A stretch of DNA of 64,000 nt from Treponema vincentii. Its GTDB lineage: Bacteria; Spirochaetota; Spirochaetia; Treponematales; Treponemataceae. Numbering within the stretch: position 1 is the stretch's first letter; each line of letters opens with the position of its first letter. The DNA is taken from NCBI RefSeq assembly GCF_018336815.1, contig NZ_CP050497.1:372001-436000 (forward strand). Reading direction: 5' to 3'. Under the pieces are notes generated by a model. The model did not search any database. It had not been told where the DNA came from and was given only the letters and a program-made list of their open reading frames with translations. Positions 9,762-40,645 of this stretch are shown in pieces. Position numbers and translations under genes: made by a program.

Positions 9762-9905
9762 AGGGTAAACGTATCAGGCATTTTTTTTAAGGTTCCCCAC
9801 AAAATCGGGAGGCTGTTCAAGCAGAGTTGAACTTCTTCGCGCTTCAAATGCTTGCCCAATCTCCCGATTTTGTGATTTATATTTACTCGTCTGATGCATC
9901 TACCT
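9762..9905 (-). repeat. Family A palindromic element, copy A1 (reverse orientation)
   Basis: The outer ends are AGGGTAAACGTATCAG and CTGATGCATCTACC. Inner arms CACAAAATCGGGAG/CTCCCGATTTTGTG surround a centre with GTTCAAGCAGAGTTGAA. The right end overlaps the 3' end of the GH3 gene and encodes its last residues (VDASDE) and stop. Confidence 0.75.
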
Positions 9906-11190
9906 TTCTTCTTTCATATACGACGGCGGCTTCTTTTGCGTGTCGAAATTTTTCCCAATCAGGTGTATGCGGTATCAAGAAGCCGTCTGGGCAGATAGGC
10001 TTGCTTGTATCGATGAGTTGCACTTTTTGCTTGGCGGTTAAAACATGCAGTACCGCTTCGTCAAGCCGCTTTGCAAACGCAGTATCAGTGCGGGCTTTTT
10101 CGGCAATGGCTTCAACCAACGGATAAATCTTAGACAGCGAGCACATAACCATGTCGCAGCCGGCTGCGATTGCACGCACGGCGTTTTCTTCGGGCGAAGC
10201 GCCGTTCCGGTTTAATGCCTGCATTGCAATATCGTCCGTGATGATAAGGCCGGAAAAGCCCAATACATTACGGAGTAGGGCAATTCCTTTTGTAGAAAAA
10301 CAGAACGGCGCGGCTTCGACTGCCGGTACCGTAATATGAGAAATGAGAACCGCTGCCGCATCGTCCGTAATTGAAGGCTGGAATACTGAGCAATAGCGGC
10401 TGAGGAAGGCTTCATAGTCAACGGTTAATTCGGCAGCACTTTTGTGTAAATCCGCGGCGCTGTTGCCGGGAAAGTGTTTGACCGCTGCAAGAATACCGGT
10501 GTTCTGCATACCCCGTACTGCAGCGGCGGCGTATTGCCCTGCTTGTTCCGGTTCCGAGCTGAATGTCCGCGTACCAAGCGCCGTTGCAACGTCTTCCGTT
10601 CCTGCTTCCGCAACCGGAGCCAGATTAAGATGGAGACCAAGCTCCCGCATCTGCTGTCCCAATAACCGGTAGAGTTCCTCAGTTTCCTCGACGGAAAAAC
10701 GCTTGCCGATTTCCTCTGCGGCGGGAAGCGGCGCGGTGATGCGGCGGGTTCGGTAGACAGTGCCGCCCTCGTTATCAAGTGCAAAAAGCGGCGGGACAAA
10801 AGTACGGCCTGAACGCTGCGCCGTGCTTTGAAATCCTTGTGCGGCCGATTCTAAAAAGTCTGCAACCGCTTGGGGCGTGTCTGCGATATTATAGCCAAAT
10901 AAAAGCACGGCGCCCGGAACGGTTCCCTTGAACGATGCGATGCTTTTTGCATCCGCCGTTTTGCTCCCCGCAATATTGACCATCAGTACTTGCGCCGCTT
11001 TTTCTTCAAGCGAAAGCTGAGAAACAACGGCACGGAGGGACGCCTCATTTTGAGATGAGGCCATATATTCTGAGGCGGCTGTTGATACGGTGAGATTGCG
11101 AGACTGCGCAAATAAAGCGGAAAGGGTAAAAACGAAAACGGCTGCAGCCGTCATACAACAGCTGCAGCGTATTTTTTTTAGCGATAACAT
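9883..11190 (-). CDS. Exported GH3 glycosidase, beta-N-acetylhexosaminidase (NagZ-like)
   Basis: A 435-aa protein with a signal peptide (hydrophobic 13-27, then FAQS). The family 3 barrel follows: LFALDNEGGTVYR (about 136-147), the KHFPG loop at 238-242 with Asp247 and His249 of the shortened D-x-H catalytic loop, and LIITDD (315-320) carrying the nucleophile Asp. These are the marks of NagZ-type beta-N-acetylglucosaminidases, which act on peptidoglycan fragments. The PGHG of typical NagZ reads PGNS here, so the general acid/base loop is atypical. It has no C-terminal GH3 domain. Its last codons lie inside repeat A1, suggesting the original 3' end was replaced. Confidence 0.85.
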   Translation of the reverse strand: MLSLKKIRCSCCMTAAAVFVFTLSALFAQSRNLTVSTAASEYMASSQNEASLRAVVSQLSLEEKAAQVLMVNIAGSKTADAKSIASFKGTVPGAVLLFGYNIADTPQAVADFLESAAQGFQSTAQRSGRTFVPPLFALDNEGGTVYRTRRITAPLPAAEEIGKRFSVEETEELYRLLGQQMRELGLHLNLAPVAEAGTEDVATALGTRTFSSEPEQAGQYAAAAVRGMQNTGILAAVKHFPGNSAADLHKSAAELTVDYEAFLSRYCSVFQPSITDDAAAVLISHITVPAVEAAPFCFSTKGIALLRNVLGFSGLIITDDIAMQALNRNGASPEENAVRAIAAGCDMVMCSLSKIYPLVEAIAEKARTDTAFAKRLDEAVLHVLTAKQKVQLIDTSKPICPDGFLIPHTPDWEKFRHAKEAAVVYERRKVDASDE

Positions 11191-11245
11191 AAAAAAGCGG
11201 TACCGGAGAAGCGAATATCTTTGTCCATTACCGGCAGAGCGGCTG

Positions 11246-13126
11246 TTAACGGATTTCTGCGAGTGAGTCGCCTTCTGCTACCTGCACACCGGCTGCAGCC
11301 ACAAAGTGAATAATGCCCGCCTTATGCGCATTGATTTCCAATTCCATCTTCATCGATTCAAGCATGATAACCGTTTGTCCCTCGCTAACCTGTGCGCCTT
11401 CCGCAACAGTGTAGCGTAATAACGTACCGGCAACGGGCGCAGCAAGTTTTTCGCCGCCGACTCCGACTGAGGCTTTCCCCTGCGGGGCGGGCTGCTGTGC
11501 TGTAGGTTTGGATGCTGCAGCCGGTTGTGCCGCGACAGATGCCACCGAAGCAGCGGATGAAGCTGTCGCCGGTTTTGCCGATACAGGCGCTGACGCTTTT
11601 TGAGCTGGTGCGGAACCGGTATTTTCTTTTACGCTGACTGTGTATGCGGTGCCGTTTACGGTGAATGTTCCGTTAGATGAAGAAACCGCATAATCGGTTC
11701 CGTTCACCGTTACCGTATACGAACCGCTGCCGTTCGCGGTACCCTTAGCTTTTTTCTCCGCTCCCGTAAACACAACGGGGCCTTTACTGCGCTCTTTAAA
11801 GAACTTGGGCGCAACTTTGGGGAACATCGCATACGTCAGAACATCTTCGATAGAATTGCCCGCTCCGTTTTCCTTTGCTTCGGCTTTTATTTTATCCAGC
11901 TCATTAGGGATGAGGTCGGCAGGACGTGCCGTTACAGGGGCTTCTATCTTTGCTTCCGCCAAAGCGACTTTTACCAGCTCTTCATTGCACGGAGCGGGCG
12001 TTTTACCATACCGGCCGATAAGCAGGTCGCGGGTTTCTGCAGTCAGTTTTTTATACCGTCCGAACAGCACATTAAACACCGACTGAGTACCGACAATCTG
12101 GCTGGTCGGGGTAACAAGCGGAATATAGCCGCAGTCCTTTTGAACAATCGGGATTTCTTTTAAGACTGCATCTATTTTGTCGGAGGCTTTAAGGTCGCGC
12201 AGCTGATTTTCAAGGTTGGAAAGCATACCGCCCGGAACCTGCGACACGAGAATACGGGTATCTGCACCGAGGAAGCTCGATTCAAACTGAGCGTAATGTT
12301 TGCGTACTTCACGGAAATAGGCCGCAATTTCGAGGAGTAGGTTGATATCCAAACCGGTATCCCATTCAGTACCGCGGAAAATTTCTACCATAGTTTCGGT
12401 TGGGCTGTGCGAGGTTCCCATCGACATCGACGAAATAGCCGTGTCCAAGATATCCGCTCCCGCTTCCGCTGCTTTAAGCAGTGTCGCTACGGAAAGCCCT
12501 GTTGTTGCATGGGTATGAATATTGATCGGAATACTCGTCTTCTTTTTAATCGCCGTTACTAAATCGAATGCTTCCATCGGCTTTAAAAGCCCTGCCATAT
12601 CTTTAATACAGATGGAATCGGCACCGAATTCCGTATACGTTTTTGCCAGTTCCGCATAGTTTTCGATAGTATGATACGGAGTTGTTGCAAAGGAGATCGC
12701 CATTTGAACATGCTTACCGGTTTTCTTTGCTGCATCCGCTGCACGTTTAAGGTTGCGCGGGTCATTGAGCGCATCAAAGATACGGAACACCCCGACACCG
12801 TTATCGGCAGCAGCTTTTACAAACGCATCGACGACATCATCGGCATAGTGTCGGTAACCCAATAAGTTTTGTCCGCGCAGCAACATCATAATGGGAGTAT
12901 TCGGCAGCGCCTTATGCAAAGAGCGCAGCCGCTCCCACGGATCTTCATTTAAAAAACGGATACATGAATCGAACGTCGCTCCGCCCCATGCTTCCAAACT
13001 CCAATATCCGACGCTATCCAGCTTGCTGCAAATAGGCAGCATATCTGCGGTTGTCATGCGCGTTGCATGTAAAGACTGATGCGCATCCCGTAATACCAGA
13101 TCGGAAATCCGAACTTTGTGTGCCAT
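11246..13126 (-). CDS. oadA: Oxaloacetate decarboxylase alpha / pyruvate carboxylase B-type carboxyltransferase with biotinyl domain
   Basis: A 626-aa biotin-dependent carboxyltransferase. The HMGL-like barrel begins DLVLRDAHQSLHATR and holds the metal/substrate motifs of the family (VSQVPGGMLSNL, HTHATTG). The conserved carboxylase domain follows, then an Ala/Pro-rich linker, then a biotin carrier domain whose ESMKMEL puts the biotin on about Lys593. I chose ATG 13126-13124 because AGGAG lies 8 nt upstream; a longer frame to 13198 exists. The linker holds two short repeats containing TVNGT. No beta or gamma sodium-pump subunit is in the window, so whether this is a Na+ pump subunit or a soluble pyruvate/oxaloacetate enzyme is open. 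Confidence 0.87.
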   Translation of the reverse strand: MAHKVRISDLVLRDAHQSLHATRMTTADMLPICSKLDSVGYWSLEAWGGATFDSCIRFLNEDPWERLRSLHKALPNTPIMMLLRGQNLLGYRHYADDVVDAFVKAAADNGVGVFRIFDALNDPRNLKRAADAAKKTGKHVQMAISFATTPYHTIENYAELAKTYTEFGADSICIKDMAGLLKPMEAFDLVTAIKKKTSIPINIHTHATTGLSVATLLKAAEAGADILDTAISSMSMGTSHSPTETMVEIFRGTEWDTGLDINLLLEIAAYFREVRKHYAQFESSFLGADTRILVSQVPGGMLSNLENQLRDLKASDKIDAVLKEIPIVQKDCGYIPLVTPTSQIVGTQSVFNVLFGRYKKLTAETRDLLIGRYGKTPAPCNEELVKVALAEAKIEAPVTARPADLIPNELDKIKAEAKENGAGNSIEDVLTYAMFPKVAPKFFKERSKGPVVFTGAEKKAKGTANGSGSYTVTVNGTDYAVSSSNGTFTVNGTAYTVSVKENTGSAPAQKASAPVSAKPATASSAASVASVAAQPAAASKPTAQQPAPQGKASVGVGGEKLAAPVAGTLLRYTVAEGAQVSEGQTVIMLESMKMELEINAHKAGIIHFVAAAGVQVAEGDSLAEIR

Positions 13127-13310
13127 ACCATTACTCCTATGCGGTTCATACATTGAACATTGGTTTATAATGATATTGTTTATCGGTGGTTTTTGCAAGG
13201 TGTTTTTTGACAGGTTATTTTAAGAGAGCTGTTTTTGGTAGATACGGATGAATCGCGCCGACTAATCCGAGCAAAGACTAATCGGCGGATTGGTGCGTTT
13301 TAAAATTCAG

Positions 13311-14732
13311 TTACTTTCTGATATAATTATTGACGTCATACGGTTTACCCGCATTATAATCATGCAAGACAGCCGCAACGGTACCGCTCAACAACAATAA
13401 GCTGATAAGGTTCGGGATAACCATAATACCGTTAAAGAAGTCTACCAATTCCCATACTAAATCGATTTTCAGCAAGCTGCCTAAAAAGATAAATACTACG
13501 ACCAACAGTTGATATGGTACTAAGCCTTTTGAGCCGAACAGATACCGGATATTGGTTTCGCCAAAATAATACCAACCGATAATCGTGGAGAATGCAAAAA
13601 AGAATAAACAGATTGCAATAAAAAGGTAACCGAAAGTGTGCCCGAAAAGATGCTGTGAAAACGCCTCTTGAACCAGCTGAATACCTTTCATTACCGGCTG
13701 CCCGTTTTCAAACTTGATAATTCCTGCGCTGAGTACGGTAAAAACGGTAATATTCAAAACAACGAAGGTGTCGATAAAGACGGCGACAATTCCCAATACA
13801 CCCTGTTCAACGGGGCTGTCTACGGTTGCAACTGCATGCGCATGCGGCGTTGAACCCATACCTGCTTCATTGGAGAAAAGACCGCGTGCAATACCGTAAC
13901 GGGCTGCACGTCCCATACCGAAACCTAAAGCTCCGCCCCAAACAGATCTCGGGTTAAATGCCCCTTTAAAGATCATCGCGAACATTGCCGGAATATTGGA
14001 CGCATTCATCAAAATAACGATGATTCCGACAATAATATAAACAATCGCCATCAACGGAACAACCTTTTCGGTAACGGAAGCGATACGCTTTACACCTCCC
14101 ATAAAAATGATACCGGCAATAACGGCAAGGATAACTCCTGTTATCCATGTGGGGACGGAGAATGCATTTAAAAACGCATCGGAAATTGAGTTCGCTTGAA
14201 CCATATTACCCATAAATCCGAGCGCGAGGATAATTGCGATGGAAAAGAACGCCGCAAGGAATTTTGCAAAGCCCGTATTTCCTAATCCGCGGGAAATGTA
14301 ATATGCAGGGCCGCCGACTGTCTGTCCTGAATTATCTTTTGTTTTGTAAACTTGTGCGATACAAGCCTCGGCAAAGTTTGTTGCCATACCTGCCAATGCG
14401 GCAAGCCACATCCAAAAGATTGCTCCCGGGCCACCCATAATCAGCGCAGTCATTGCACCGACTAGGTTACCGGTTCCTACCTGTGCGGCAATAGCGGTTG
14501 CGACAGCTTGAAAAGAACTCATCCCATGCTTTCCCGCTTTTTCTCCTTTTAATGAAAAATTACTGAAAAGTCTGCGCCATCCGGCGCCGAACTTTGAAAA
14601 TTGTACGCCTTTGAGTCGAAGGGTGAAAAACAACCCTGTTCCGCAGAGCAGGGGAATGAGGAAATACGGACCCCATACAAAGCTGTTTATGCTGCCAACT
14701 AAATTAGTAAGATTTTGTAAAAACGCTTCCAT
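13311..14732 (-). CDS. alsT: AGCS-family sodium:alanine/glycine symporter
   Basis: A 473-aa integral membrane symporter with 10-12 hydrophobic helices. AGCS marks are present: QVGTGNLVGAMTAL near residue 86, GGPGAIFWMWLAAL, and the GLFSNEAGMGSTPHAHA motif around 285-300, which lines the amino-acid/Na+ site. Family members import alanine or glycine with sodium. The ATG follows a GGAGG-type site (14743-14747). It stands alone on the minus strand upstream of oadA with a 110-nt gap. Nothing in its leader looks like a glycine riboswitch. Confidence 0.9.
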   Translation of the reverse strand: MEAFLQNLTNLVGSINSFVWGPYFLIPLLCGTGLFFTLRLKGVQFSKFGAGWRRLFSNFSLKGEKAGKHGMSSFQAVATAIAAQVGTGNLVGAMTALIMGGPGAIFWMWLAALAGMATNFAEACIAQVYKTKDNSGQTVGGPAYYISRGLGNTGFAKFLAAFFSIAIILALGFMGNMVQANSISDAFLNAFSVPTWITGVILAVIAGIIFMGGVKRIASVTEKVVPLMAIVYIIVGIIVILMNASNIPAMFAMIFKGAFNPRSVWGGALGFGMGRAARYGIARGLFSNEAGMGSTPHAHAVATVDSPVEQGVLGIVAVFIDTFVVLNITVFTVLSAGIIKFENGQPVMKGIQLVQEAFSQHLFGHTFGYLFIAICLFFFAFSTIIGWYYFGETNIRYLFGSKGLVPYQLLVVVFIFLGSLLKIDLVWELVDFFNGIMVIPNLISLLLLSGTVAAVLHDYNAGKPYDVNNYIRK

Positions 14733-14934
14733 ACAAATAGAACCTCCAATTAATAATCTTTGAATATCGTATCATATATTGTCGGTGCTCGCAAGTATAT
14801 AATTATTTTTTTATCTATTTATAAATATTTTTAATAAACTTAAAAAATGAATAATAAGTAAGAGAGCGTTATAAAGAGTTGTCGATCGGTAGGTTTTTAG
14901 AATGTCCCAATTAATAATTTATTCGTGCGGAAAA

Positions 14935-14972
14935 TTTAACCCCGACGATCCGCATCGGGGTTGTTGATTCCA
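14935..14972 (-). terminator. Terminator-like hairpin after pepD (family D half-copy)
   Basis: AACCCCGAT/TCGGGGTT with a short loop and an AT-rich tail on the minus strand, followed by CCGCACGAATAAA. These are the ends seen in the family D repeats. Confidence 0.5.
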
Positions 14973-14986
14973 TTGGATTATATTTC

Positions 14987-16426
14987 TTACCGCATATTTT
15001 CCAGCAGTTTAACGATAAATTTCCACATCCGCTCGGCTGAGGAAATACTCAAATGCTCATTTGGGGTATGGACATCGTATAAATTCGGACCGAAGCTGAC
15101 GGCGTCAATGTCGGGGATGGTCTTTTTGATAAGACCGCACTCCAGCCCTGCGTGAACGGCGGACACAATCGGCTCTTTTCCGGTAAGGTCTTTGTATGTT
15201 TTTACGGCAACATCCCGGGCGCGAGACTGCGGTGAATACTCCCACGCGGGGTACTCCGACACCTTGTTAAAGACGCCGCCGGTACGCTCCGCGCAGAGCT
15301 GCAGCACCTGCACAATTTCATCCAGTTCGCTCTTCACCGAGCTGCGCACCGAAATCGTAAATGTCAAGGTTTCTCCGTCGACGGCGAGGATACCGTTATT
15401 CAAGCTGGTTTGTACCAATCCGGGGATATCCATACTCATGTATTGCACCCCGTCGGGAACCATTGTCATAAAGTCTATGATGCCGCCGCTGACCGTGCCG
15501 TTATACATCATCTTAGGCAGAGCCGTCGCCGCTTCGGCTGTGATGCGGATATCTTTGTCGGCAACGCGGTATTCCGCTTTGATTGCTTCGGCAAGTTTTG
15601 CGATGGCTGCTTGTGCGCGGGCGGCATCCTCGACGGTGATAATTGCCTGCGCTTCTTTTGCAATGGCATTATGCTTCGAGCCGCCTGAAATGGACACGAT
15701 ATGCACAGTCTGCTCCGCCTTTACTGCGGACAAAATCCGCCCCAGCAGTTTGATGGCGTTTGCACGCTGCTTGATAATCTCCATACCGGAATGCCCGCCG
15801 AGTAGCCCGTCGACTTTGACGGAGAGCGCCTGTCCCTTCAACGGTTCCGTTTCAATCTTAAAATCGATATGGGTATTGGCGCCGCCTGCACAGCTGACTA
15901 AAAAGACGCCTTCCTCTTCGGAATCGACATTGAACAGAATCCTCCCCTGCAAATGGTCGGCTTTTAACGCTCGCGCACCGTCCATGCCGACTTCTTCGGT
16001 TGTGGTAACTAAGACCTCAAGCGGCGGATGTGCAAGCGACTTGGAATCAAGAATTGCCAACGCATACGCGACCGCGATGCCGTCGTCTCCGCCGAGCGTT
16101 GTGCGGTCGGCGTGGAGATTGTCGCCGTCTACAATCAACTTGATCGGGTCTTTCAAAAAATCGTGATTAGAATCCGCCGTTTTCTCGCAGACCATATCCA
16201 TGTGACCCTGCAATATCACCGTCGGGGATTTTTCATATCCTGCCGTCCCGGGCTTTTTGATAATGACGTTGAGCGCCTCATCCTGATACACTTCAAGTGA
16301 ACGTTCTTTTGCAAAATGCACCAAAAAATCGCTGATGGCTTTTTCGTTGTGTGAACCGCGCGGTACAGCCGATATTTCGGCAAACCAATGGAATACTTCT
16401 TTGGGTTGAATGTTTTCTATAGTCAT
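14987..16426 (-). CDS. pepD: Aminoacyl-histidine dipeptidase (M20 family, PepD)
   Basis: A 479-aa zinc dipeptidase. Metal and catalytic regions of the M20/PepD group are clear: VILQGHMDMVCE (His and Asp), TTLGGDDGIAVAYALA (bridging Asp), TTTEEVGMDGA (catalytic Glu pair), FNVDSEEEG, and near the end VHAGLECGLI. The lid carries the GGLLGGHSG-type motif. I chose ATG 16426-16424, which has GAGGAGGAAC just upstream, over a longer frame from 16477. It should release histidine and other residues from dipeptides in the cytoplasm, fitting an amino-acid-fermenting treponeme. No operon partner is apparent. Confidence 0.92.
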   Translation of the reverse strand: MTIENIQPKEVFHWFAEISAVPRGSHNEKAISDFLVHFAKERSLEVYQDEALNVIIKKPGTAGYEKSPTVILQGHMDMVCEKTADSNHDFLKDPIKLIVDGDNLHADRTTLGGDDGIAVAYALAILDSKSLAHPPLEVLVTTTEEVGMDGARALKADHLQGRILFNVDSEEEGVFLVSCAGGANTHIDFKIETEPLKGQALSVKVDGLLGGHSGMEIIKQRANAIKLLGRILSAVKAEQTVHIVSISGGSKHNAIAKEAQAIITVEDAARAQAAIAKLAEAIKAEYRVADKDIRITAEAATALPKMMYNGTVSGGIIDFMTMVPDGVQYMSMDIPGLVQTSLNNGILAVDGETLTFTISVRSSVKSELDEIVQVLQLCAERTGGVFNKVSEYPAWEYSPQSRARDVAVKTYKDLTGKEPIVSAVHAGLECGLIKKTIPDIDAVSFGPNLYDVHTPNEHLSISSAERMWKFIVKLLENMR

Positions 16427-16609
16427 AATTGTTCCTCCTGAGCGGAAATAGTGGATTTCTCTAAACCATCGAAACATCGCTTAGAGTTCCTTTCAGTGTA
16501 TCATAATTTTACGAATGTTACAGGGTGTCCGTCCGTATTGTCACATCGTATTTTAGATGATATTATCAGAATCTCTATATTATTAATTTATAAATGGAAA
16601 GGAAATGTT

Positions 16610-17893
16610 ATGGATACGATGTCGGCAGTGAGGACACGGGAAGAAATTCTGTTTGACATTATGCAAACGACATCCCGGTTATACAGTATTCGCGATAAAG
16701 ATATTTTATTGGAAAGGATATTAACTGAGGCACGGCAGGCTTTAAATGCTGACGCAGGTTCCATTTATCTGGTAGATGGGAATCATCTGGTTATTCATTA
16801 TGCCCAAAACGAAACGCTACAAAAGCGATTAAAGCCGGGAGAAAAGCTTCCGTTTCATGTTTTTTCGTTTCCAATCAATAACACGACTATTGCAGGTTCG
16901 GCTGCGATGACCAGACAGTTGATCAATGAACCGAATGTCTATGCTATTTCTCCCGATAAACAGTATAAATTCGGTACGGTCAGCGATGTTGCGACAGGCT
17001 ATAAAACAGTATCGACGTTGACGATGCCGTTAATTGCGATTTCCGGCAATGTATTGGGCGTCCTGCAAATGATCAATGCGCTAGACGTACATGGCCATAT
17101 CTGCGCCTTTACTTCCGACGACGAAATGTTTCTCTCTCATTTTGCAGCAAATGCTGCCGCAACGCTTATGCACGCATCGTTAACTCGCGAGATGATTCTT
17201 CGTATGGTGCAAATGGCTGAGCTGCATGATCCGCGGGAGACGGGGTTACATGTACATCGGGTTGCTAACTATGCAGTAGAAATTTATGACCGCTGGGCGT
17301 TTAACCATAATATCAACCGGCATGAACGAGAAAAATTCCGAGATGCACTTAAAATCGCTGCTATGCTGCATGACGTCGGAAAGATCGGAATTTCGGATTT
17401 GATACTTAAAAAGCCCAGTAAACTCACACCGGAAGAATATCAAATTATGCAGAGCCATACATGGCGCGGAGCAAAATTATTTTTGTCGGGAAATTCGGCG
17501 GTTGATACTATGTCGCGGGATATTGCCTTGCGGCACCATGAAAACTGGGATGGAACCGGTTATCCCGGGCATATCGCTGAAGAGACCGGCGCAATAGTAA
17601 AATACAACCGTACGCACACTGCTGCACAGGGGCTTATTGGTGAAGAAATTCCGCTTGGCGCCCGTATTACCTCACTTGCAGATGTCTACGATGCGCTTTC
17701 CTGCAAACGGATTTATAAAGAAGAATGGACTGATGATAAAGTTTTGGAAGAGATACGGCGGCTGCGCGGTGTAAAATTCGACCCCGAAATTACCGATGCT
17801 TTTTTGGAAATTATACCGAGAATTAAAGCCATCAAGGAACATTTTTCAGAAGCCGCTGCGTCTCACGGTCAAGCGCTTGAGCAAATTCCATAA
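16610..17893 (+). CDS. GAF-HD-GYP cyclic-di-GMP phosphodiesterase-type protein
   Basis: A 427-aa soluble signalling protein. Residues about 15-190 form a GAF-type sensor (LNADAGSIYLVDGNHLVIHYAQ; GVLQMINALD). This is followed by an HD-GYP domain with MLHDVGKIGI, RHHENWDGTGYPG and TSLADVYDALS. The HD pair, the downstream HH and the intact GYP are present, so hydrolysis of cyclic-di-GMP is likely. ATG 16610 has AAGGAAAT just upstream; the frame is open back to 16451 without better support. Its 3' end overlaps the convergent yqxD gene by 62 nt. Confidence 0.88.
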   Translation: MDTMSAVRTREEILFDIMQTTSRLYSIRDKDILLERILTEARQALNADAGSIYLVDGNHLVIHYAQNETLQKRLKPGEKLPFHVFSFPINNTTIAGSAAMTRQLINEPNVYAISPDKQYKFGTVSDVATGYKTVSTLTMPLIAISGNVLGVLQMINALDVHGHICAFTSDDEMFLSHFAANAAATLMHASLTREMILRMVQMAELHDPRETGLHVHRVANYAVEIYDRWAFNHNINRHEREKFRDALKIAAMLHDVGKIGISDLILKKPSKLTPEEYQIMQSHTWRGAKLFLSGNSAVDTMSRDIALRHHENWDGTGYPGHIAEETGAIVKYNRTHTAAQGLIGEEIPLGARITSLADVYDALSCKRIYKEEWTDDKVLEEIRRLRGVKFDPEITDAFLEIIPRIKAIKEHFSEAAASHGQALEQIP

Positions 17894-22016: not shown

Positions 22017-22160
22017 TAGGGTAAACACATCAGACACTTTTTGAATACCCCGCAGAATAAATAAGCTGTTCAACCAGAATTTCGCCGCTATGCGGCTCAA
22101 ATGGTCTCACAGCTTATTTATTCTGCGTTCTTACCGATTCTATCTGATGTGTTTACCCTA
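22017..22160 (-). repeat. Family A palindromic element, copy A2 (reverse orientation)
   Basis: A complete 144-bp copy. The perfect outer inverted repeat is TAGGGTAAACACATCAGA/TCTGATGTGTTTACCCTA. The perfect inner arms are CGCAGAATAAATAAGCTGT and ACAGCTTATTTATTCTGCG. The centre holds TTCAACCAG and CTCAAATGGTC. It starts 11 bp after the lipoprotein stop and could act as its terminator. Confidence 0.85.
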
Positions 22161-31915: not shown

Positions 31916-31925
31916 TTTTCAGGAG

Positions 31926-32122
31926 CTGGGCAAGTGTATCAGACCAATCAACAACCCCGACGCGAGCGTCGGGGTATTAAAGCCTCCGCACGAATAAAGA
32001 GAAATGGCAGAAAAAGTGGGGGTGTGAGACCATTTGAACCGCAAAGAGGTTCAATTCCGGTTGAACAGCTCCACTTTTTCTGCGGGAATAGTAAACAAGC
32101 ATCTGATGCGTTTACCCTGCGT
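31926..32122 (+). repeat. Family A element copy A3 carrying a family D insertion
   Basis: The left end GGGCAAGTGTATCAGA and right end TCTGATGCGTTTACCC match family A ends. Inner arms GCAGAAAAAGTGG/CCACTTTTTCTGC pair. About 50 bp of family D sequence (CAACCCCGACGCGAGCGTCGGGG..CTCCGCACGAATAAA) sit between the left end and the inner arm, where the other copies have about 15 nt. Confidence 0.75.
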
Positions 32123-32133
32123 TTTGATACAGC

Positions 32134-32727: not shown

Positions 32728-32896
32728 TTGTATACTCCTAAAAAAACAAAGTACGGTTGTTTAAGTTTTCACACCGTCTGTGCACGACTATACCGTATTG
32801 GGCTTGCCGTATCATGAAGCCTGCATTGGAAAAAGATTAAAATATTTTAATCGGGAATTTTGACACAAAACGGAAAGAATACGGTATGATACGGTT

Positions 32897-33472
32897 ATGA
32901 CTACCCGTAAGACATTGAGTGTCTCTATCATATCGGTATGTATCTTTCTTATTATGCACAGTGCACTTTTTGCAGATAAACCGAAGGACGCTAAACATGC
33001 ATTTTCGTACCGCGGTATGCGGATGGCAAATGCCGACGGCCTTTTTTATGTTACAAAAATAGAAACCGAAATCGAGCAAGCCGGCATTATCGAAATAGAG
33101 ATTAAATTCAATATGCCTGCCGATCCGCGTACACTCCAAAAAAAACATATCAGCATAAACGGTCAGTTTTTACCTGCCGATGCGCTAATTGCTTTTAACA
33201 AAGCAGGTGATAAAATAAAAATATTGATTCGGGACTCTTTTTTATCTGCGGGAAAAGATACGCCAAATCGTCCGTTTCATCTTGATTTACCGGAAGCGAA
33301 AAGCTTTAATCATATTCCGCTCTATCTTTCACACTTTGATGATATGGAATGCAACAAAGAATATAAATTTAGATTTTTAAATATTCCGCCGCAGAAACCT
33401 CCTAAGGAAATGCACGAAGAAATGCATAATCATCACCATTATGAATATGTTCGTTTTGAGGAAAAAGATTGA
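32897..33472 (+). CDS. Exported protein with His-rich C-terminus, first gene of a two-component operon
   Basis: A 191-aa protein with a cleavable signal peptide (hydrophobic 10-24, ending LFA-DK). The central part is beta-rich (GIIEIEIKFNMPADPRTLQ..ISINGQFLPADAL), resembling an immunoglobulin-like or CopC-like domain. The end, HEEMHNHHHYEY, could bind metal. The stop overlaps the ATG of the response regulator (TGATG), indicating translational coupling. A role as periplasmic sensor accessory for the kinase is plausible but unproven. No homologue is recognised. Confidence 0.65.
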   Translation: MTTRKTLSVSIISVCIFLIMHSALFADKPKDAKHAFSYRGMRMANADGLFYVTKIETEIEQAGIIEIEIKFNMPADPRTLQKKHISINGQFLPADALIAFNKAGDKIKILIRDSFLSAGKDTPNRPFHLDLPEAKSFNHIPLYLSHFDDMECNKEYKFRFLNIPPQKPPKEMHEEMHNHHHYEYVRFEEKD

Positions 33473-34158
33473 TGGCACGGGTATTAATCGTTGAAGATGA
33501 TTCGGGCATTGCCGAATTCTTACAGCTTGAACTTGAGCATGAAGGATATGATATTCTCTACGCTGCAGACGGCAGAACCGCTTTGGATATTTTTGAAAAG
33601 AATGAGCCGGATCTTGTGCTGCTCGACATTATGCTTCCCCAGCTGAACGGACTTGAAGTGTTGCGGCGAATCAGAAAAACGTCGAATACGCCGGTTATTA
33701 TGCTCACCGCGCGGGGGGATACATTCGATAAGGTGAGCGGTCTTGATTCCGGGGCGGATGACTATCTTGCAAAACCGTTTGAGATTGAAGAGCTGCTTGC
33801 GCGGATGAGGGCTGTGATGCGCCGGAATAATGCACAGGGAATAACGCCGTTAAAACTGCGCGGTATCGAACTTAATCCGAACAGTATGGAAGTAACGGTA
33901 AACAAAGAACGGGTTATGTTGTCGAAAACCGAATACCTTTTGTTGAAGACATTGCTTGAACACAAGAACACCGTTTTAAGCCGCGATACCATCATCAATA
34001 CGGTATGGGGTGCAGATCATTACATCGATGAAAATTCGGTCGATGTGTATGTGCGATATTTGCGTGCAAAAATCGATGACAAAACCGGTGAGGAATACAT
34101 CTCTACGGTACGCGGCGTCGGCTATGTTATACGGGACACCGGCAATGCAAGCATCTGA
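33472..34158 (+). CDS. OmpR-family response regulator
   Basis: A 228-aa regulator: receiver domain with the acidic pair in VEDD, phospho-acceptor in LVLLDIMLP, Thr in VIMLTARG, Lys in YLAKPFEIEEL. A winged-helix DNA-binding domain follows (LSKTEYLLLKTLLEHKN, VDVYVRYLRAKID, ISTVRGVGYVI). ATG 33472 overlaps the stop of the exported-protein gene by 1 nt. The stop lies inside the start of the kinase gene, a typical coupled pair. Confidence 0.92.
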   Translation: MARVLIVEDDSGIAEFLQLELEHEGYDILYAADGRTALDIFEKNEPDLVLLDIMLPQLNGLEVLRRIRKTSNTPVIMLTARGDTFDKVSGLDSGADDYLAKPFEIEELLARMRAVMRRNNAQGITPLKLRGIELNPNSMEVTVNKERVMLSKTEYLLLKTLLEHKNTVLSRDTIINTVWGADHYIDENSVDVYVRYLRAKIDDKTGEEYISTVRGVGYVIRDTGNASI

Positions 34159-35552
34159 TTCACCGGTACGGCAGCTCCGCATATCGACGGTACGGCAGCT
34201 TTCACTGCGCTTCTCTCTTTTGTTTGCCGTGATGATTGCCCTTTTTTCCGCCGGTATTATTGTGCTGCTTCGTTCCGGCGTTAGGCAGCAGCAAAACCGC
34301 GAACTTATTTCCGCCGCTCGAATTATTGCCGAAGCACTGAAGAACGGCCGCGTACAAGAAATTGATGCGGAGCTTCCGTATTATATTACGTTTTCCGTGT
34401 ATCAGAGCGGCACGCAGGAAGTGATTGCAACGAACGACCCTTTTTTACCGATGCTGCCGGTAACACCCCGCCGTGCAGAACGGTATACGGCAAAGCAATA
34501 CTTTATCGACGGCGATTTAAATATTCTCTACTATGCAGTATCCGTTCATGCGGGGGAGGCTTACGTTATACAGACGGCGTTGAATATGGATTCCGATACG
34601 GCGGAGTCCATTATTTCCGGCATACCGAGCATTCTCGCCGTGGTTACCGTCCCGTTGCTGCTGCTTTCGTACATCGCGGTGTTTTTTATGACAAAACGTA
34701 CAATGCGAAGCGTTCGTGCTATGACCGATGCGGCAAAGAACATCAGCGGCTCCAATTTAACCGACCGGCTTCCCGTTACGGATAAGGACGACGACTTTGA
34801 TGTCCTTGCAAAAAACATTGAACGATTTGCTTTCTCGCCTGCAAACCGATTTTGAACGGGAGCGCCGGTTTACAGCTGATGTGTCGCACGAGTTAAAAAC
34901 ACCGCTTGCCGTAATTCTCGGTCATGCCAATCTGCTGCGTCGTTGGGGAAAGCACGATCCCGACCGTTTGGAAAAATCGCTTTCGGCACTGATCCGCGAA
35001 GCACATTCGATGGAAGCTATTATCGAAAATTTGCTGCAAATGACCCGGCTTGAAAACGGGCATATACGGATTCATAAAACGCCTGTTCCCGTTGCCGAAT
35101 TTTTTACGCGGCTTATCGACAGTACACAAAGCTACGCACCGAATGTGAGCTTTACCGAAAGTATTGGGGTGCCAACCGTGTATACGGATGAAGCGCTGCT
35201 CCATCAAGTATGCACTATTATAATTTCCAACAGCGTAAAATTTGCCGGAGAATATACTCATATCGAACTTTCGGTACAGCCGCTTTTAGAAGCAGAGCGC
35301 CTTCCTGATGCGCCTGCATCGGAAGGCGCATATATTATTTCGATTTCGGATAACGGTCCGGGAATTGCGCAAGATATACTGCTACATATATTTGAGCGCT
35401 TTTACCGCGGAGATGCCGCACATACGAGAGGTGCAGGCGGTGCGGGACTTGGATTGTCGATAGCGGCAAGCATTGTGCATGCGCTCGGCGGTTCAATCAG
35501 TGCCGTAAATACTCAAGACACAGGCGCCTGTATAATGCTGCAGCTGCCGTGA
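34145..35552 (+). pseudogene. Sensor histidine kinase, frameshifted as sequenced
   Basis: The ATG at 34145 lies 14 nt inside the response-regulator gene. The product has TM1 (FSLLFAVMIALFSAGIIVLL), an extracytoplasmic domain of about 110 residues, TM2, and a HAMP domain (MRSVRAMTDAAKNISGSNLTDRLP). At an A6 run (34810-34815) the frame breaks; with five A it continues VLAKTLNDLLSRL. Then follow HisKA (FTADVSHELKTPLA, His codon at 34887), the N box region, SDNGPGI, and GAGLGLSIAASI. The repaired protein is about 468 aa. Both parts keep every motif, so a sequencing overcall is more likely than decay. Confidence 0.87.
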
Positions 35553-35561
35553 TTCCTAATT

Positions 35562-35640
35562 AAGGCAACCGTACCAGAAATAATTTAAGCGGTTGCCTTC
35601 CTTTTGTGTGAAATTTTATTCAAAATTTCGCACATTTTTT
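35562..35640 (+). terminator. Two-hairpin terminator after the kinase gene
   Basis: AAGGCAACC/GGTTGCCTT (35562-35599) is followed by GTGTGAAATTTT-ATTC-AAAATTTCGCAC and a run of seven T. A related pair precedes repeat A5 near 40170-40490, so this is also the left part of a composite element. Confidence 0.65.
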
Positions 35641-35653
35641 TAGCAGATGAAAC

Positions 35654-35800
35654 AGGTAAACATATTAGGCAAAGTAGAGCAAAAGCGCAAAATAATTGGG
35701 GCTGTGAGACCATTTGAACAGCGAAGTGGTTCAACTCTGGTCGAACAGTCCTAATTATTTTGCGGGGCTGTTAAAAAAAATCGCCTAATGCGTTTATCAT
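35654..35800 (+). repeat. Family A palindromic element, copy A4
   Basis: Ends AGGTAAACATATTAGGC and GCCTAATGCGTTTATC pair with two mismatches. Inner arms CGCAAAATAATT/AATTATTTTGCG and the centre hairpin TTGAAC..GGTTCAA with GACCA/TGGTC are present. It lies between the kinase gene and the cyclase gene; 35801-35929 holds no gene. Confidence 0.8.
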
Positions 35801-35929
35801 GGCACGCAGGACGTTCACTTGACAAAAAATACCGAGAATATACACTATAGGTAATCATTAATATATCGGCAGGTCGTTGAAAGACGTTCCTTCAGGTTAT
35901 AAGCTATTCTAAAAATATAGGACATTGTG

Positions 35930-38308
35930 ATGAGCGAAATCGAAGATGAAAAGTTAGAAACAGTACATACACAGACAGCAAAATTCCCTTATATGCTGCA
36001 AATTGTTTCCCTTGTTATTTTGGCTGCATTGATGTTTATGCCGTTCGGCATGGATAAAATGGATCTGCTCAATTATGAGCAAACTCCGCAGCTCTTGTAC
36101 CCGTTTACGGTTCTATTCTCAGGGTTAGTTCAAAGGAATTTACATTTTTTTTATATAAGCTGTTTCTCCTTTTTTTTATTGCCCGTAGCATTTCTCATTA
36201 TTTTAACTTCTATCTTTAATAAAAAAATAACACAGAATATCGTTATTATTTCTGCTTTTGTTGCAGTAACATTTTATCTTGCAGCTGCTATTTCGGGGAT
36301 GATGACATTTGCCAACACTATACGCTGGTTTCAGGGGTTAAGTATTTTAGTATACGCTGCTTTTTTTACTGCTTTTATTTTTCATGTCTTTTTAATCAGT
36401 CGCGGGATTCCTTTGATAAAAGCAAATAATGAGGCGTACTCTGAATACAAGCAGCTGATTTTGGAAGATGAAAAAACGGATAAACTGAATAAACCACAGG
36501 TAAGCACTAAATCGGGAACAATAGTAGCCGAACAACCGGAAGGGAAAAGATTCAATATAAATATAAAAGAACAAATCCAAAACTTGATCGGGCGAGTAAA
36601 AGATCCTGACAAGAAAACGCATCTAAAAAATAAAATTGCAGCGGTGATTCTTGTTACAATTATTGTTAATATTTCTGTCTTTATTTATACGGATTTAAAG
36701 AACTACAAATTGCTTTTAACGCAAAATGTCAATACAACCGGTAAGAATCAAGCCGAACAGGTTGCGGCCATTTATGATTTTTCAGATGGGCTTCATGCAA
36801 AAATAAGCGCCTTTCTTGAAGGCATAAAAAAGACAAATGCATCTTCTCCATTTCCGCATCGCCGTGTAGATATTATTACAACAGACAGTAACGAGCCGGT
36901 GTTTCTTGATAAGATTAATGACACTACAGTACTTCCCGATTTCAATGTATTCTCGTATACAACGGAGCAGGGGGCGGTGCGTAATATACCGGCAGAAGAA
37001 AAACGCATTACTGCGGAAGAAGCTGCTCTTTACATACAACATTTTCAAAATACACTCACTCGAAGTCAGCCTATTTATAAACCGGAAAAGGGTTCCTGCA
37101 TATATATATATCCTATAACCTTTTCGCGCAAAGACGGTCAAAGGCTGGTTGGTTTCGCCGTTGTAACATATATGAAAGAAATACTGGAGCGTCCGTATTT
37201 TCAAGCAAAAGTATTTATCTTTGCACTTGCAGCAGTTTTTGCATACGCTGCAATTATCATTACGCTTTTCCTTGCCGATTTTATTGCCGAGCCTATTATT
37301 CAGCTTTGCGTAAATATTAGAAAGACGACCAATATATTAAACGAAATATTTTCGGGTAATGCAAAGATTGAGGCAAACAGACTTGTATTTGAAGATAATC
37401 TGAAAACACGCGATGAAATAAAAACACTTTCGAAGGAAATAAAAAATATTATTACGCTTGTGCGTGGTATGCTTCCATATATTTCGTTCCATACCCTTCG
37501 AAATGCAGAAAAAGATGTCGGTTCAAAAAGTATCTCGCGGAATCTTTGTTTCCTTTTTACCGATATTAGAGGCTTTACGAAACTTTGTGAAAAATTGCCG
37601 GCAAGAGAGGTTATATCGATGTTAAATCGCTATCTTAACATCGAAACTAAAATTATTTTTGATAACGGTGGTGATGTTGATAAGTATGTCGGGGACGAAA
37701 TGATGGCTTTTTTTGCAGGTCCAAGAAAAGAGATAAATGCTTGTAAGGCAGCGATGGAAATACGGGAAGCGCTTTATCGTGAACACCAAGCAGCTATGAA
37801 AGTAGGAAGAGAAACAATTTCACTCGGTATCGGTATAAATACGGGTTATGTTATATTCGGCCCTGTCGGTTCCGAAACAAGAAAAGATTTCACTTCCATT
37901 GGCGATACGGTTAATTTGGCAGCACGGCTTGAAGGTGCAAATAAACAATATGGATCAAAGACTATTATTTCTGAAGCCGTCTACAACAATTTGAACAATG
38001 CATTTATTTGCCGTGAACTTGATTATATAACAGTAAAAGGGAAAACAGAAGTTGTGCGTATTTTTGAAGTTTTGCAAGAAACCAAAAAAAATACCAGCGA
38101 TAAAATTTATGATTTAAAAAAGCTTTTTGAAACAGGACTTGACTATTATCGACAACGCAAATGGAAGACCGCAGAAAAGTATTTTATGGAATGTGTAGAA
38201 AAATATAACGATCAACCTGCAAAAGTTTTCTTAGACAGAATAGCTCATTATCGCAGTTCTCCACCTCCGGCAGACTGGAAGGGTGTCTTTGCTATGCGGA
38301 TGAAATAA
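35930..38308 (+). CDS. Membrane-bound class III adenylate/guanylate cyclase
   Basis: A 792-aa protein. Residues 1-170 hold about four membrane helices. A further membrane helix comes near 240, then an extracytoplasmic sensor region to about 420, another membrane helix, and a HAMP-like linker. The cyclase domain follows with LFTDIRGFTKL (metal Asp about 545), GGDVDKYVGDEMMAFF (second Asp about 589) and SIGDTVNLAARLEG. Both metal aspartates are intact, so it should make cAMP (or cGMP). The C-terminal 80 residues look like a TPR-type helical tail. GTG 35927 could replace ATG 35930. No partner gene is adjacent. Confidence 0.85.
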   Translation: MSEIEDEKLETVHTQTAKFPYMLQIVSLVILAALMFMPFGMDKMDLLNYEQTPQLLYPFTVLFSGLVQRNLHFFYISCFSFFLLPVAFLIILTSIFNKKITQNIVIISAFVAVTFYLAAAISGMMTFANTIRWFQGLSILVYAAFFTAFIFHVFLISRGIPLIKANNEAYSEYKQLILEDEKTDKLNKPQVSTKSGTIVAEQPEGKRFNINIKEQIQNLIGRVKDPDKKTHLKNKIAAVILVTIIVNISVFIYTDLKNYKLLLTQNVNTTGKNQAEQVAAIYDFSDGLHAKISAFLEGIKKTNASSPFPHRRVDIITTDSNEPVFLDKINDTTVLPDFNVFSYTTEQGAVRNIPAEEKRITAEEAALYIQHFQNTLTRSQPIYKPEKGSCIYIYPITFSRKDGQRLVGFAVVTYMKEILERPYFQAKVFIFALAAVFAYAAIIITLFLADFIAEPIIQLCVNIRKTTNILNEIFSGNAKIEANRLVFEDNLKTRDEIKTLSKEIKNIITLVRGMLPYISFHTLRNAEKDVGSKSISRNLCFLFTDIRGFTKLCEKLPAREVISMLNRYLNIETKIIFDNGGDVDKYVGDEMMAFFAGPRKEINACKAAMEIREALYREHQAAMKVGRETISLGIGINTGYVIFGPVGSETRKDFTSIGDTVNLAARLEGANKQYGSKTIISEAVYNNLNNAFICRELDYITVKGKTEVVRIFEVLQETKKNTSDKIYDLKKLFETGLDYYRQRKWKTAEKYFMECVEKYNDQPAKVFLDRIAHYRSSPPPADWKGVFAMRMK

Positions 38309-38374
38309 ATGGCAGGAAAGCTTTTATACACTGCATTTTTTAGAGTTTCTCTGCGATATTTACCAAATATATTA

Positions 38375-38445
38375 CGAGCCAACATCCCCGACGCAGAGCA
38401 TACGTTGCACAGCAATAAGGGGTTAACCCCTCTGCACGAATAAAA
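38375..38445. repeat. Family D repeat copy
   Basis: It begins AGCCAACATCCCCGACGCAGAG, carries GGGGTTAACCCC and ends CTCTGCACGAATAAA. It shares its ends with the copies at 7177, 31948 and 55080, and abuts the terminator of the cyclase and htrA genes. Confidence 0.55.
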
Positions 38446-38487
38446 AAAAAGCGCCGATTAATCTTGACGGTTAATCGGCGCTTTTCA
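38446..38487. terminator. Bidirectional terminator between cyclase and htrA
   Basis: AAAAGCGCCGATTAA pairs with TTAATCGGCGCTTTT across a 9-nt loop, with A-rich and T-rich flanks, so it works on both strands for the convergent genes. Confidence 0.8.
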
Positions 38488-38507
38488 TTTTCAGCTTTTA
38501 TCTTAAC

Positions 38508-40010
38508 TTAAAACTTATAGCGTAAAGTCGATAGTGTTTGTCCTTCACGCAGTACATCGAACCACACTTCTTTTTTGATCTTTGATAATTCACGATAGAA
38601 TTCGCGCATATTGGTTACCGGTACATCATTTACCGCAGTAATAATATCACCTGATTTAAGCCCGATAATAACGGCGGGCGTTTTATTGGTAATGTTGGTT
38701 ACCAGCACGCCTGTTTGTTTTTTATCAAGCTTTAATTTATCGCGTATTTCATCACTGAGTTCGTAACCGATAAATCCCGGCCATAATTTCGACGAGTCGG
38801 TAACGATTTTCTGATCCCGCTCTTCAATCTTTACAGAGAATGTTTGTTCTTTACCATCGCGGATAACCACAAATTCAGCGGTAGTGTTGCTACGAAGATC
38901 GCCGACATCGCGGACAAGTTGATCGACGCTCTTAACCTCTTTACCGTTCAGCTTAACGACAAAATCGCCCGGACGGATGCCGCCTTTAAATGCAGGAGAC
39001 CCTAAGAAGATGTCGATAGCCAAAGCGCCGGTTTTTTCACCGAGCCCCAGAGCTTTCATAACCGTTTCGTCGGCGCTCGTCAGTTGGACACCAACCCATC
39101 CATATTTCAATTTACCGTCGGAAATAAGTGAGTCGATTGCTCCTTTGACGTTGTTGATCGGAATGGAAAAACCAAGTCCCTGTGACCCTCCGCTTGATGA
39201 TGCAATCCATGTGTTAATACCGATAACTTGCCCGTAGATATTGACGAGCGGGCCGCCGGAGTTTCCCTGATTGATGGCGGCATCGGTTTGAATAAAGTCG
39301 TTGATGTTATTATTCGGACCGCCCGACCGCCCGACCGCGCTGACCATACCGCGGGTAACCGTCGAAACATACCCGAGCGGAGAACCGACAGCAAAGACAA
39401 TATCGCCAACCTCTACCGCATCGGAATTTCCCAATTCAGCAATAGCAATATCTTTTTCGGTGGATTCAAATGAAACCAGTGCAATATCTCGTCGCTGATC
39501 TCCGCCGACCAGTTTTCCTTCTGCGGTATGTCCGTTATATAACTTGACGATAATCTTTTCAGCCGTACCGGTAACATGCTGATTAGTCAGCACATAATAG
39601 GTATTGCCGTTCTTACGAACGATAACACCCGAACCCATCCCTTCTGATTTATATTCTTGCTCGCCGCTATCGTTCCCTTCTGATTTTTCACCGTTATTCT
39701 GATTAGGCATTCCAAAAAAGAACCACGGAAAACCGTCTCCCGAAAGGGGATTGCGGACTTTTTTAATTTCCGTAACCGATAGCGTTACTACTGACGGTAA
39801 AATTGCCGCCGATACTTGCCGGTTCGCACTTTGCAGCCCTTCCAACAAGGAAATCGTCTCTTTTGTAATTGCTTCCGAATGCTTTGTGTCAGCATATACT
39901 GTTGTTGCAGAAGCAGGACTTGCAGAGCAGGATGATACAAAAATCATTACAACCATGCTCAACAGTGCGGTAAATGACAGTACCGTTTGAAATCTTTGTC
40001 TTAAATGCAT
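38508..40010 (-). CDS. htrA: HtrA/DegP-family periplasmic serine protease (lipoprotein)
   Basis: A 500-aa protease/chaperone of the envelope. The signal ends in a lipobox-like FVSSC (Cys28). The trypsin-like domain has the triad His145 (LTNQHV), Asp175 (RRDIALV) and Ser251 (GNSGGP). Two PDZ domains follow, one starting near YGWVGVQL and the other near WPGFIGYEL with the loop GLKSGDIITAVN. I chose ATG 40010-40008 because GGAGG lies about 7 nt upstream. It has a GAAAACTTCT/AGAAGTTTTC hairpin about 90 nt upstream and a shared bidirectional terminator downstream. Confidence 0.93.
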   Translation of the reverse strand: MHLRQRFQTVLSFTALLSMVVMIFVSSCSASPASATTVYADTKHSEAITKETISLLEGLQSANRQVSAAILPSVVTLSVTEIKKVRNPLSGDGFPWFFFGMPNQNNGEKSEGNDSGEQEYKSEGMGSGVIVRKNGNTYYVLTNQHVTGTAEKIIVKLYNGHTAEGKLVGGDQRRDIALVSFESTEKDIAIAELGNSDAVEVGDIVFAVGSPLGYVSTVTRGMVSAVGRSGGPNNNINDFIQTDAAINQGNSGGPLVNIYGQVIGINTWIASSSGGSQGLGFSIPINNVKGAIDSLISDGKLKYGWVGVQLTSADETVMKALGLGEKTGALAIDIFLGSPAFKGGIRPGDFVVKLNGKEVKSVDQLVRDVGDLRSNTTAEFVVIRDGKEQTFSVKIEERDQKIVTDSSKLWPGFIGYELSDEIRDKLKLDKKQTGVLVTNITNKTPAVIIGLKSGDIITAVNDVPVTNMREFYRELSKIKKEVWFDVLREGQTLSTLRYKF

Positions 40011-40089
40011 ACGTTTACCTCCAACATAAGAACGCCGCGAAAGAATTTTCACAGCCTCTGTAATTTCGCAAATAAAAAATAAAGCCGAG

Positions 40090-40130
40090 GAAAACTTCTT
40101 AAAACTGAAGTTTTGAGAAGTTTTCAATTA
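40090..40130. promoter_or_regulatory. Hairpin in the htrA leader
   Basis: GAAAACTTCT-AAAAC and GTTTT-AGAAGTTTTC form a long stem with a GAA-type loop. It is a candidate attenuator or RNA-stability element, and its arms resemble the first hairpin of family C. Confidence 0.5.
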
Positions 40131-40169
40131 CTTCTTAAACATATAAAATACTATTATGATACACGTATC

Positions 40170-40500
40170 GGCTAGAGCAATCGCATTAAAAAATTTTTAG
40201 CGATTGTCTTCCTTCTGTGCGAAATTTCATAGGTATAAGGTGAGCGTCTACAATGATGCCTTCATCAACTGATGAACATCCCTGTCCATCAGTTGATAAC
40301 GAATTTTGGCAAAGCCAAAATATCGCTTCTGCTCTAACCACCGCCGTCCGTGGCGGATGTATTAACCGTCAAGTTTTCTTTCGAAAACTTGCGTATTGAT
40401 GTGTGCGCTTTTCGCGCACGAATGCAACAGTTTCCAAAATTCATATTTTGTTCAACTGTTGCATTTTAAGGAAATAAAATTTCGTACATTTTTTCAGCAA
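40170..40500. repeat. Family B hairpin array inserted into the left hairpin of copy A5
   Basis: The left half GCGATTGTCTTCC..GTGCGAAATTTCAT (to about 40231) and the right half AAAATTTCGTACATTTTTTCAGCA (from about 40477) correspond to one uninterrupted hairpin at 35590-35645. Between them lie consecutive hairpins: ATCAACTGATG/CATCAGTTGAT; AATTTTGGC/GCCAAAAT; CCGCC-GTCCGT-GGCGG; CAAGTTTTC/GAAAACTTG; GTGCGC/GCGCAC; AATGCAACAGTT/AACTGTTGCATT. No gene is supported from 40011 to 40700. Confidence 0.7.
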
Positions 40501-40502
40501 AG

Positions 40503-40645
40503 GGGTAAACGCATCAGACGAATAGAATATAGATCGCAAAATCAGGAGGGTGGGCAAGCATTTGAACCGCGAAGAGGTTCAACTCTGCTTGAACAGCCTC
40601 CTGATTTTGCGGGGTGATCAACAAAACGTCTGATGTGTTTACCCT
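40503..40645 (+). repeat. Family A palindromic element, copy A5
   Basis: Outer ends GGGTAAACGCATCAGACG/CGTCTGATGTGTTTACCC pair almost perfectly. Inner arms are CGCAAAATCAGGAGG/CCTCCTGATTTTGCG. The centre has AAGCA/TGCTT around TTGAACC..GGTTCAA. It lies 55 bp before metN. Confidence 0.85.

Follow-up and report, generated by a model that had tools for sequence, protein, structure and literature searches.

A mobile repeat family of Treponema vincentii with ISAs1-type ends and an inner hairpin whose fold appears to outlast its sequence

We analyzed a family of palindromic repeats, family A, in a 64,000-nucleotide stretch of the Treponema vincentii genome (contig NZ_CP050497.1, positions 372,001 to 436,000; hereafter the window, with coordinates counted from its first letter), in the rest of this genome (G000), and in its relatives. 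The explanation that we favor, which taken as a whole is somewhat likelier to be right than wrong, is that these repeats are miniature inverted-repeat transposable elements (MITEs) of the ISAs1 type in which the fold of an inner hairpin is under selection and sequence variants are swapped between sites. An ISAs1-type transposase would move the unit in trans, and the end stem, P1, would stay self-complementary as the terminal inverted repeat, while the inner hairpin (stems P2 to P4) and an upstream hairpin, H1, would keep their folds as their sequences drift. Selection on the inner hairpin would most likely be for RNA of the + strand that acts in cis near gene starts or ends, possibly in processing, attenuation, or insulation. 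Existing variants would be swapped between sites as whole interiors via recombination or gene conversion.

The initial annotation of the window had described five copies of a nested palindrome (hairpin A), and we find them at coordinates that agree within 5 bases. Copy 1 (9763 to 9905, − strand; arms ...AAAATCGGGAG/CTCCCGATTTT...) scored 117.5 bits with our covariance model, R1; copy 2 (22019 to 22158, − strand; arms AGAATAAATAAGCTG/CAGCTTATTTATTCT) has identical 16-base ends in inverted orientation and scored 137.3 bits; copy 3 (31928 to 32117, + strand), which carries a foreign insert from 31945 beside the left end stem, scored 95.7 bits for 31972 to 32117; and copies 4 (35654 to 35799, + strand) and 5 (40503 to 40644, + strand) scored 139.3 and 141.7 bits. 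The reported second stem, AAGCA/TGCTT in some copies and GACCA/TGGTY in others, is likewise present, and we observed the further variants CTCCA/TGGAG and CAGCA/TGCTG. The end motif GGGTAAACRYATCAGR occurs with ≤3 mismatches at 17 places in the window, compared to 2.05 ± 1.48 in shuffles, and with ≤1 mismatch at 127 places (70 forward and 57 reverse) in the 2.71-Mb genome; a reversed-pattern control gave 0. A genome-wide collection and a covariance model had been proposed as a check. R1, built from 16 copies (alignment A1), produced 113 matches at E ≤ 0.01 with both strands counted, which reduce to 81 distinct places since the model recognizes the element in either orientation; this is perhaps a lower bound, as 150 of 1489 first-look candidates were scored.

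Among 40 genomes searched, R1 matched five, all from the same genus and including T. vincentii itself, with 64 to 79 matches each (strands were counted apart and at most 79 candidates were scored per genome); G003 and G005, also of this genus, had none. A laxer cutoff applied to nine genomes yielded nine matches at six places in G052, a member of a different genus, a single marginal match in G049 (E 0.0125), and no match in the other seven. Two of the three places read in G052 have the layout described below, H0-H1-A, with different arm sequences.

The ∼145-bp palindrome had been taken for the element itself. The palindrome is present, but it is only the 3′ part of a larger unit, and a single palindrome as the unit is ruled out by two hairpins, H0 and H1, in the upstream flanks. 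The whole unit, ∼235 bp without inserts, consists of a CAGGG end with H0, the terminator-like H1, and the long hairpin A with a CCCTG end; where the outer left end is recognizable and no insert intervenes, the unit starts ∼85 to 95 bases upstream of A. H1, found upstream of most copies, is a palindrome (e.g., GTGCGAAATTTT/AAAATTTCGCAC) followed by a T-rich run, and in many copies it is preceded by H0 (AGGGCAACCGC...GCGGTTGCC, then TTCCTTCT), the left arm of which is similar to the left end of A. Judged by eye, H0 and H1 look like intrinsic terminators for transcripts heading toward A. In the unit at 35654, H0 lies at 35562 to 35599 (+ strand; AAGGCAACCG...CGGTTGCCTT) and H1 at 35606 to 35633 (+ strand; GTGTGAAATTTT/AAAATTTCGCAC, then ATTTTTTT). 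In the unit at 40503, H0 lies at 40173 to 40212 (+ strand; TAGAGCAATCGC...GCGATTGTC) and H1 extends over 40215 to 40495 (+ strand), its left part (40215 to 40228) and right arm (40476 to 40495) being split by matches to the Rfam RNAs TD-2 (40260 to 40357, − strand) and TD-1 (40361 to 40470, + strand); no H0 or H1 was recognized alongside copy 1. Of 197 copies, 150 had an identifiable H1; these comprise 66 distinct arm pairs, some of which are TD-1 chimeras or wrong picks, and 738 of 792 cells are Watson-Crick paired. A stricter match placed an H1-like hairpin upstream in 139 of the 197 copies (upstream only in 127 and on both sides in 12) and solely downstream in 7, L016 among them; the remaining 51 have none on either side. 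The copies at 1158962 (− strand) and 1159168 (+ strand) of G000 face outward around one common H1, perhaps a fuller form of the unit. Inspected by eye, the apical part was also weighed as kink-turn-like or T-loop-like, but neither reading was retained.

The claim that the inner arms differ between copies yet remain self-complementary holds genome-wide. We aligned 67 of the 81 copies with MAFFT from sequence only, without structure guidance (alignment A4), leaving out eight with a nested loop insert (L014, L022, and L117 to L122), the partial L123, L016 with its inverted interior, the window copy at 31928 and L029 (other inserts), L116, and L038:1746, the second copy of a tandem duplication. 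Covariation was judged by shuffles, slid versions of the structure, and tree-aware counts. The consensus structure has 41 pairs, 36 of which show changes on both sides, and 95.7% of the stem cells are paired; arms that fail to complement each other across the genome, which the initial annotation had named as grounds for abandoning its claim, are thus not what we see. Compensating, double-changed cells number 284, versus 69.5 ± 6.0 in 500 shuffles, none of which reached 284, and slid structures gave 21 to 63 such cells with at most 44.0% paired. Compensating changes therefore exceed both shuffled and slid controls, as expected of a structured RNA family. The length of P2 also varies on both arms jointly (columns 50/108 and 51/107). 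These patterns suggest that selection, and not mere inheritance, preserves the fold.

The types of mismatch in a stem can reveal on which strand they are tolerated, because a C-to-T change in a G-C pair leaves G-U when one strand is read but A-C when the opposite strand is read. Raw G-U:A-C counts in 78 copies of T. vincentii and 104 copies of the relatives were 56:52 and 73:46 for P1 and 109:23 and 135:19 for P2 to P4, respectively. Inflated by shared descent, they were replaced by tree-aware counts, in which parsimony on a tree built from 176 distinct copies was used to infer how often a Watson-Crick pair became G-U and how often it became A-C; the model alignment of the relatives held 98 of the 104 fetched loci, with L240 to L245 left out and entered later by position only. 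P1 shows no strand preference (97:83, p 0.33), whereas the inner hairpin does (84:40, p 1e-4; 69:33 in P2, p 5e-4; 7:5 in P3; 7:2 in P4), and the bias differs between P1 and P2 to P4 (Fisher p 0.018). H1 is balanced as well (18:16); these two stems act as built-in controls for a strand bias in mutation. The G-U excess suggests, without proving, selection on the RNA of one strand.

Several points weigh against this interpretation. The excess is uneven and comes mostly from P2 positions 29 to 35, whereas the A/T-rich middle of P2 (positions 22 to 28) is reversed, with A-C over G-U by ∼7 to 1; P3 and P4 are each nonsignificant alone, and the binomial test treats inferred events as independent. 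Because it is uneven along P2, we grade the strand signal as suggestive, and we regard selection on RNA rather than on DNA as an evenly balanced question.

Arms could also stay complementary for mutational reasons, through template switching or gene conversion within the hairpin at replication, with no selection on the fold. Frequent double changes at P2 positions 24 to 28, where intermediates are nearly absent, arm lengths that vary on both sides together, and the missing strand preference of H1 and P1 speak for such a process, as does L016 (1501 to 1643; G000 601506 to 601648), in which P2 to P4, read by eye, appear flipped with respect to the end stem and the junctions. The G-U excess of the inner hairpin would be unexpected, however, and crossover between arms should often invert the loop, yet an H1-like hairpin lies only upstream in 127 and only downstream in 7 of the 197 copies counted above. 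Moreover, copies at the same site are mostly near identical or swapped whole rather than edited pair by pair. We therefore rate a purely mutational origin as rather improbable. Compensating change, the G052 layout with other arms, and the G-U excess confined to the inner hairpin favor fold selection, and we consider it probable that selection, not a mutational process, maintains the inner-hairpin fold.

The family A unit is very probably a MITE of the ISAs1 type, because there is an empty site, there are duplications of ∼10 bp, and the ends are like those of ISAs1-type elements. Homologous loci in relatives, which the initial annotation had suggested inspecting for absence of the element, supply the empty site: at 40503, G004 and G001 lack the whole unit and run uninterrupted with a single ..TCGGC where the window has CGTATCGGC..CGCATCGGC around H0-H1-A and nested TD elements, so that the site is precisely empty. 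The left target-site duplicate is at 40164 to 40172 (+ strand; CGTATCGGC, the A preceding it also being repeated on the right) and the right one at 40648 to 40656 (+ strand; CGCATCGGC). A second copy, G006:593895 (H1 and A), is missing from the window (49508 to 49564) and from G002, with flanks 95 to 99% alike and an imprecise border at which ∼15 bases differ. Duplications could be tested at the 33 of 81 places with a recognizable outer left end, where CAGGGYAAMCGCATCAG-like outer ends on both sides form terminal inverted repeats; 9 of the 33 copies have a flanking direct repeat of ∼10 bp scoring ≥6, compared to 0.28% with shuffled flanks, and there are four exact 10-mer duplicates (GGAATATCAA, ATATATCTTG, TAACCACCCT, and AGTGAGGCAT).

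The ends CAGGGYAAMCGCATCAG, with the outer CAGGG and the ∼10-bp duplication, resemble those of ISAs1-type insertion sequences with 10-bp duplications; we take the PF01609 transposases here to belong to the ISAs1 family from the type of their protein sequence. An ISAs1-type element of G006 with a PF01609 transposase has the ends CAGGGATTCCGCATTATA, and 10-bp duplicates accompany four of the six elements read. In G092, from another genus, an ISAs1-type element has the ends CAGGGCAAACGCATGTAA, 14/14 of its first bases being identical to a MITE end, and one of the two copies read has the duplicate GCTTGACAAT. A pattern search located MITE-like ends at 35 + 41 places in G000 and at 18 + 19 in G092; the latter genome yielded no match to hairpin A. 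The duplicates GCTTGACAAT and CGCTTGACAA of ISAs1-type elements (L247 and L161) contain TTGACA, and MITE copies often stand just before TTGACW; insertion may be preferred near −35 boxes.

Other observations count against the ISAs1-type MITE assignment. Twenty-four of the 33 testable copies are without a duplicate, 6 of them with partial matches whose right end is not a true end, and two of the nine positives (1258821 and 1259066) reflect local tandem duplication and are not independent. The site at 35654 shows deletions or remnants in relatives and no empty site: G002 retains TTACCCTG, G004 retains the right part, and G006 has an internally deleted copy; an empty-site reading for G002 was rejected. 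Among the PF01609 matches examined, the T. vincentii genome has no intact ISAs1-type element bearing these ends. Its one intact ISAs1-type copy (L153/L253) has the ends CACGGAAATC, and its own PF01609 transposases were rejected as parents of the MITE: the ends of L153 differ, and for L156 and L158, both fragmentary, the fetched loci contain no MITE-like end at ≤4 mismatches. Separately, a unit with its flank is locally duplicated in tandem at G000 1258821 to 1259326.

With such a history of transposition, evident in ends, duplications, and copy number, the fold might be needed for transposition itself, as a DNA hairpin or cruciform or through shielding from read-through by H0 and H1, and have no role at the resident site. 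A diverged variant at 1496490 is flanked by the exact 10-bp duplicate AGTGAGGCAT, so more than one variant has moved, which would agree with this possibility. However, four ISAs1-type elements read by eye have no A-like hairpin at their ends, and where species share a site, change is slower in the inner hairpin than at the ends, the opposite of what would be expected after insertion of an element kept only for jumping, although this comparison is biased by the choice of pairs. We consider this alternative unlikely.

Comparison of the same sites across species provides the rates in question. Among 81 candidate orthologous pairs defined from flanks, we compared the 54 with both flanks matched and similar length. 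In 33 of these, interiors are >93% alike; here, identity is 98.5% for the interior (3508 positions), 96.1% for the ends of A, 96.5% for the H1 zone, 95.0% for the H0 zone, 94.5 to 95.1% for the first 40 bases downstream, and 88.8 to 93.4% for farther flanks. In 14 pairs below 82%, the interior is 73.4% identical, the ends 82.2%, and flanks beyond 15 bases 85.3 to 94.8%. The other 7 pairs are intermediate (interiors between 82% and 93%), and when these are counted as unexchanged, identity is ∼96% for the interior versus ∼91% for the flanks. In 35 same-locus pairs, picked for few inner changes, per-base change was 6.5% in P1, 3.0% in P2, 3.7% in P3, and 1.4% in P4. Unexchanged interiors thus look more conserved than their surroundings. 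Two caveats apply: the 98.5% comes from a group picked by interior similarity, and is biased accordingly, with pairs that share loci and are not independent; and identity falls gradually around the element, which exchange between species centered on the element could explain.

In the pairs below 82%, the interior has been exchanged between kept flanks, often with H1 or the ends kept too, and several exchanged copies are nearer to a copy elsewhere; RL184, for example, is 93.3% identical to a copy at another site and 64.4% identical to its ortholog. We are fairly confident that block exchange between copies redistributes variants. The initial annotation had offered selection on a fold or a mechanism rewriting both arms together, and each has support; because arms and loop are replaced together between kept flanks at several sites, much of the site-by-site cochange is block replacement. 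A bolder possibility, for which we see only a modest chance, is a transposon family with a structured RNA cargo, in which each insert would be a cis-acting RNA under purifying selection, its end repeats decaying and its cassette block-exchanged between sites. If so, one genome would keep dozens of structurally equivalent, sequence-distinct versions.

The genomic surroundings bear on a possible host role. With open frames as a mechanical proxy for genes, the nearest frames of the 78 copies are both co-oriented with A in 30 cases, divergent in 21, both opposed in 11, convergent in 10, and incomplete in 6. The downstream frame is co-oriented in 51 and opposed in 23 of 78, and 16 of the 23 opposed frames end ≤16 bases from the element. 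The promoter-like TTGACW occurs ≤70 bases downstream in 12 of 78 copies, compared to 3 of 78 on the other strand there and 5 of 156 stretches farther downstream. The orientation bias, the closeness to starts and stops, and the TTGACW excess would suit a host regulatory RNA, a leader or terminator family spread by recombination only, with no transposon involved. The empty site with its duplication, the inverted ends with flanking repeats, and the ends shared with an ISAs1-type element make this very improbable. Within the MITE explanation, a cis-acting RNA is our best guess at the function, and a host-level cis function of the hairpin is a tentative proposal that we hold as somewhat doubtful.

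Other repeats are nested in the family. The Rfam families TD-1 and TD-2, which are of Treponema origin, are the only ones to reach the gathering cutoff in the window; none of their matches overlaps a hairpin A in the window, and they lie beside or within the unit. Rfam membership for family A was not upheld: a permissive search of 40250 to 40700 added just three matches, far below gathering scores. A TD-2-like palindrome occupies one fixed point in the apical loop of A, between TTTGAACC and ATCTTC..., in L014, L022, L117, L118, L119, L121, and L122 of G000; L123 has a remnant of it, and L120 has a different insert at the same point. Either a composite has spread, or the same site has received insertions more than once. 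A TD-1-like sequence splits H1 at one point in the window (40361 to 40470) and in L001, L004, L035, L036, and L054, either as a composite or through site-specific nesting. Four TD-2 matches are clustered at 57246 to 57812 (57246 to 57344, +; 57416 to 57513, −; 57538 to 57634, +; 57717 to 57812, −). Near the left end of the unit, another repeat (CAACAACCCCGACGC..GCGTCGGGGT) is inserted at 31945 to 31984 and in L029.

The nearest known systems share some of these traits. ISAs1-family insertion sequences have the same terminal CAGGG repeat, identical over the first 14 bases in G092, and 10-bp duplications, whereas the unit carries no transposase and the insertion sequence ends read by eye have no A-like hairpin. 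TD-1 and TD-2 are, like the unit, multihairpin intergenic repeats of the same genome and are nested inside it, but no TD match falls on a hairpin A of the window. ERIC/IRU and Correia/NEMIS are described as small MITEs of intergenic regions that give rise to transcripts with long hairpins close to genes (PMC2229807, PMC10969869); judged from these descriptions, the three hairpins, the compensated divergence of the arms, and the ISAs1-type ends set our unit apart. On the same basis, the CIR elements known from Caulobacter and Brucella are similar in having two hairpin arms with a linker between them but differ in their GANTC motif and missing end repeats (PMC2229807), and BOX/RUP/SPRITE of Streptococcus pneumoniae resemble the unit in having terminator-like hairpins and elements inserted into one another (PMC10969869). 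Titles and abstract openings in PubMed Central on treponeme repeats, TD RNAs, ISAs1 MITEs, and ERIC-like elements give no account of the family.

The family is a variant of the RNA-hairpin MITEs exemplified by ERIC and Correia; its unusual features are the depth of compensating change, the contrast between ends and interior, and exchange at fixed sites. Hairpins of bacterial MITEs are often viewed as a by-product of inverted ends. Here, different rules seem to govern the evolution of an element's ends and of its interior. The 81 places of this genome, along with dozens of matches per genome in four relatives, constitute a natural experiment in which it can be tested whether a bacterial transposon hairpin owes its maintenance to a role as RNA, to transposition, or solely to palindrome mutation.

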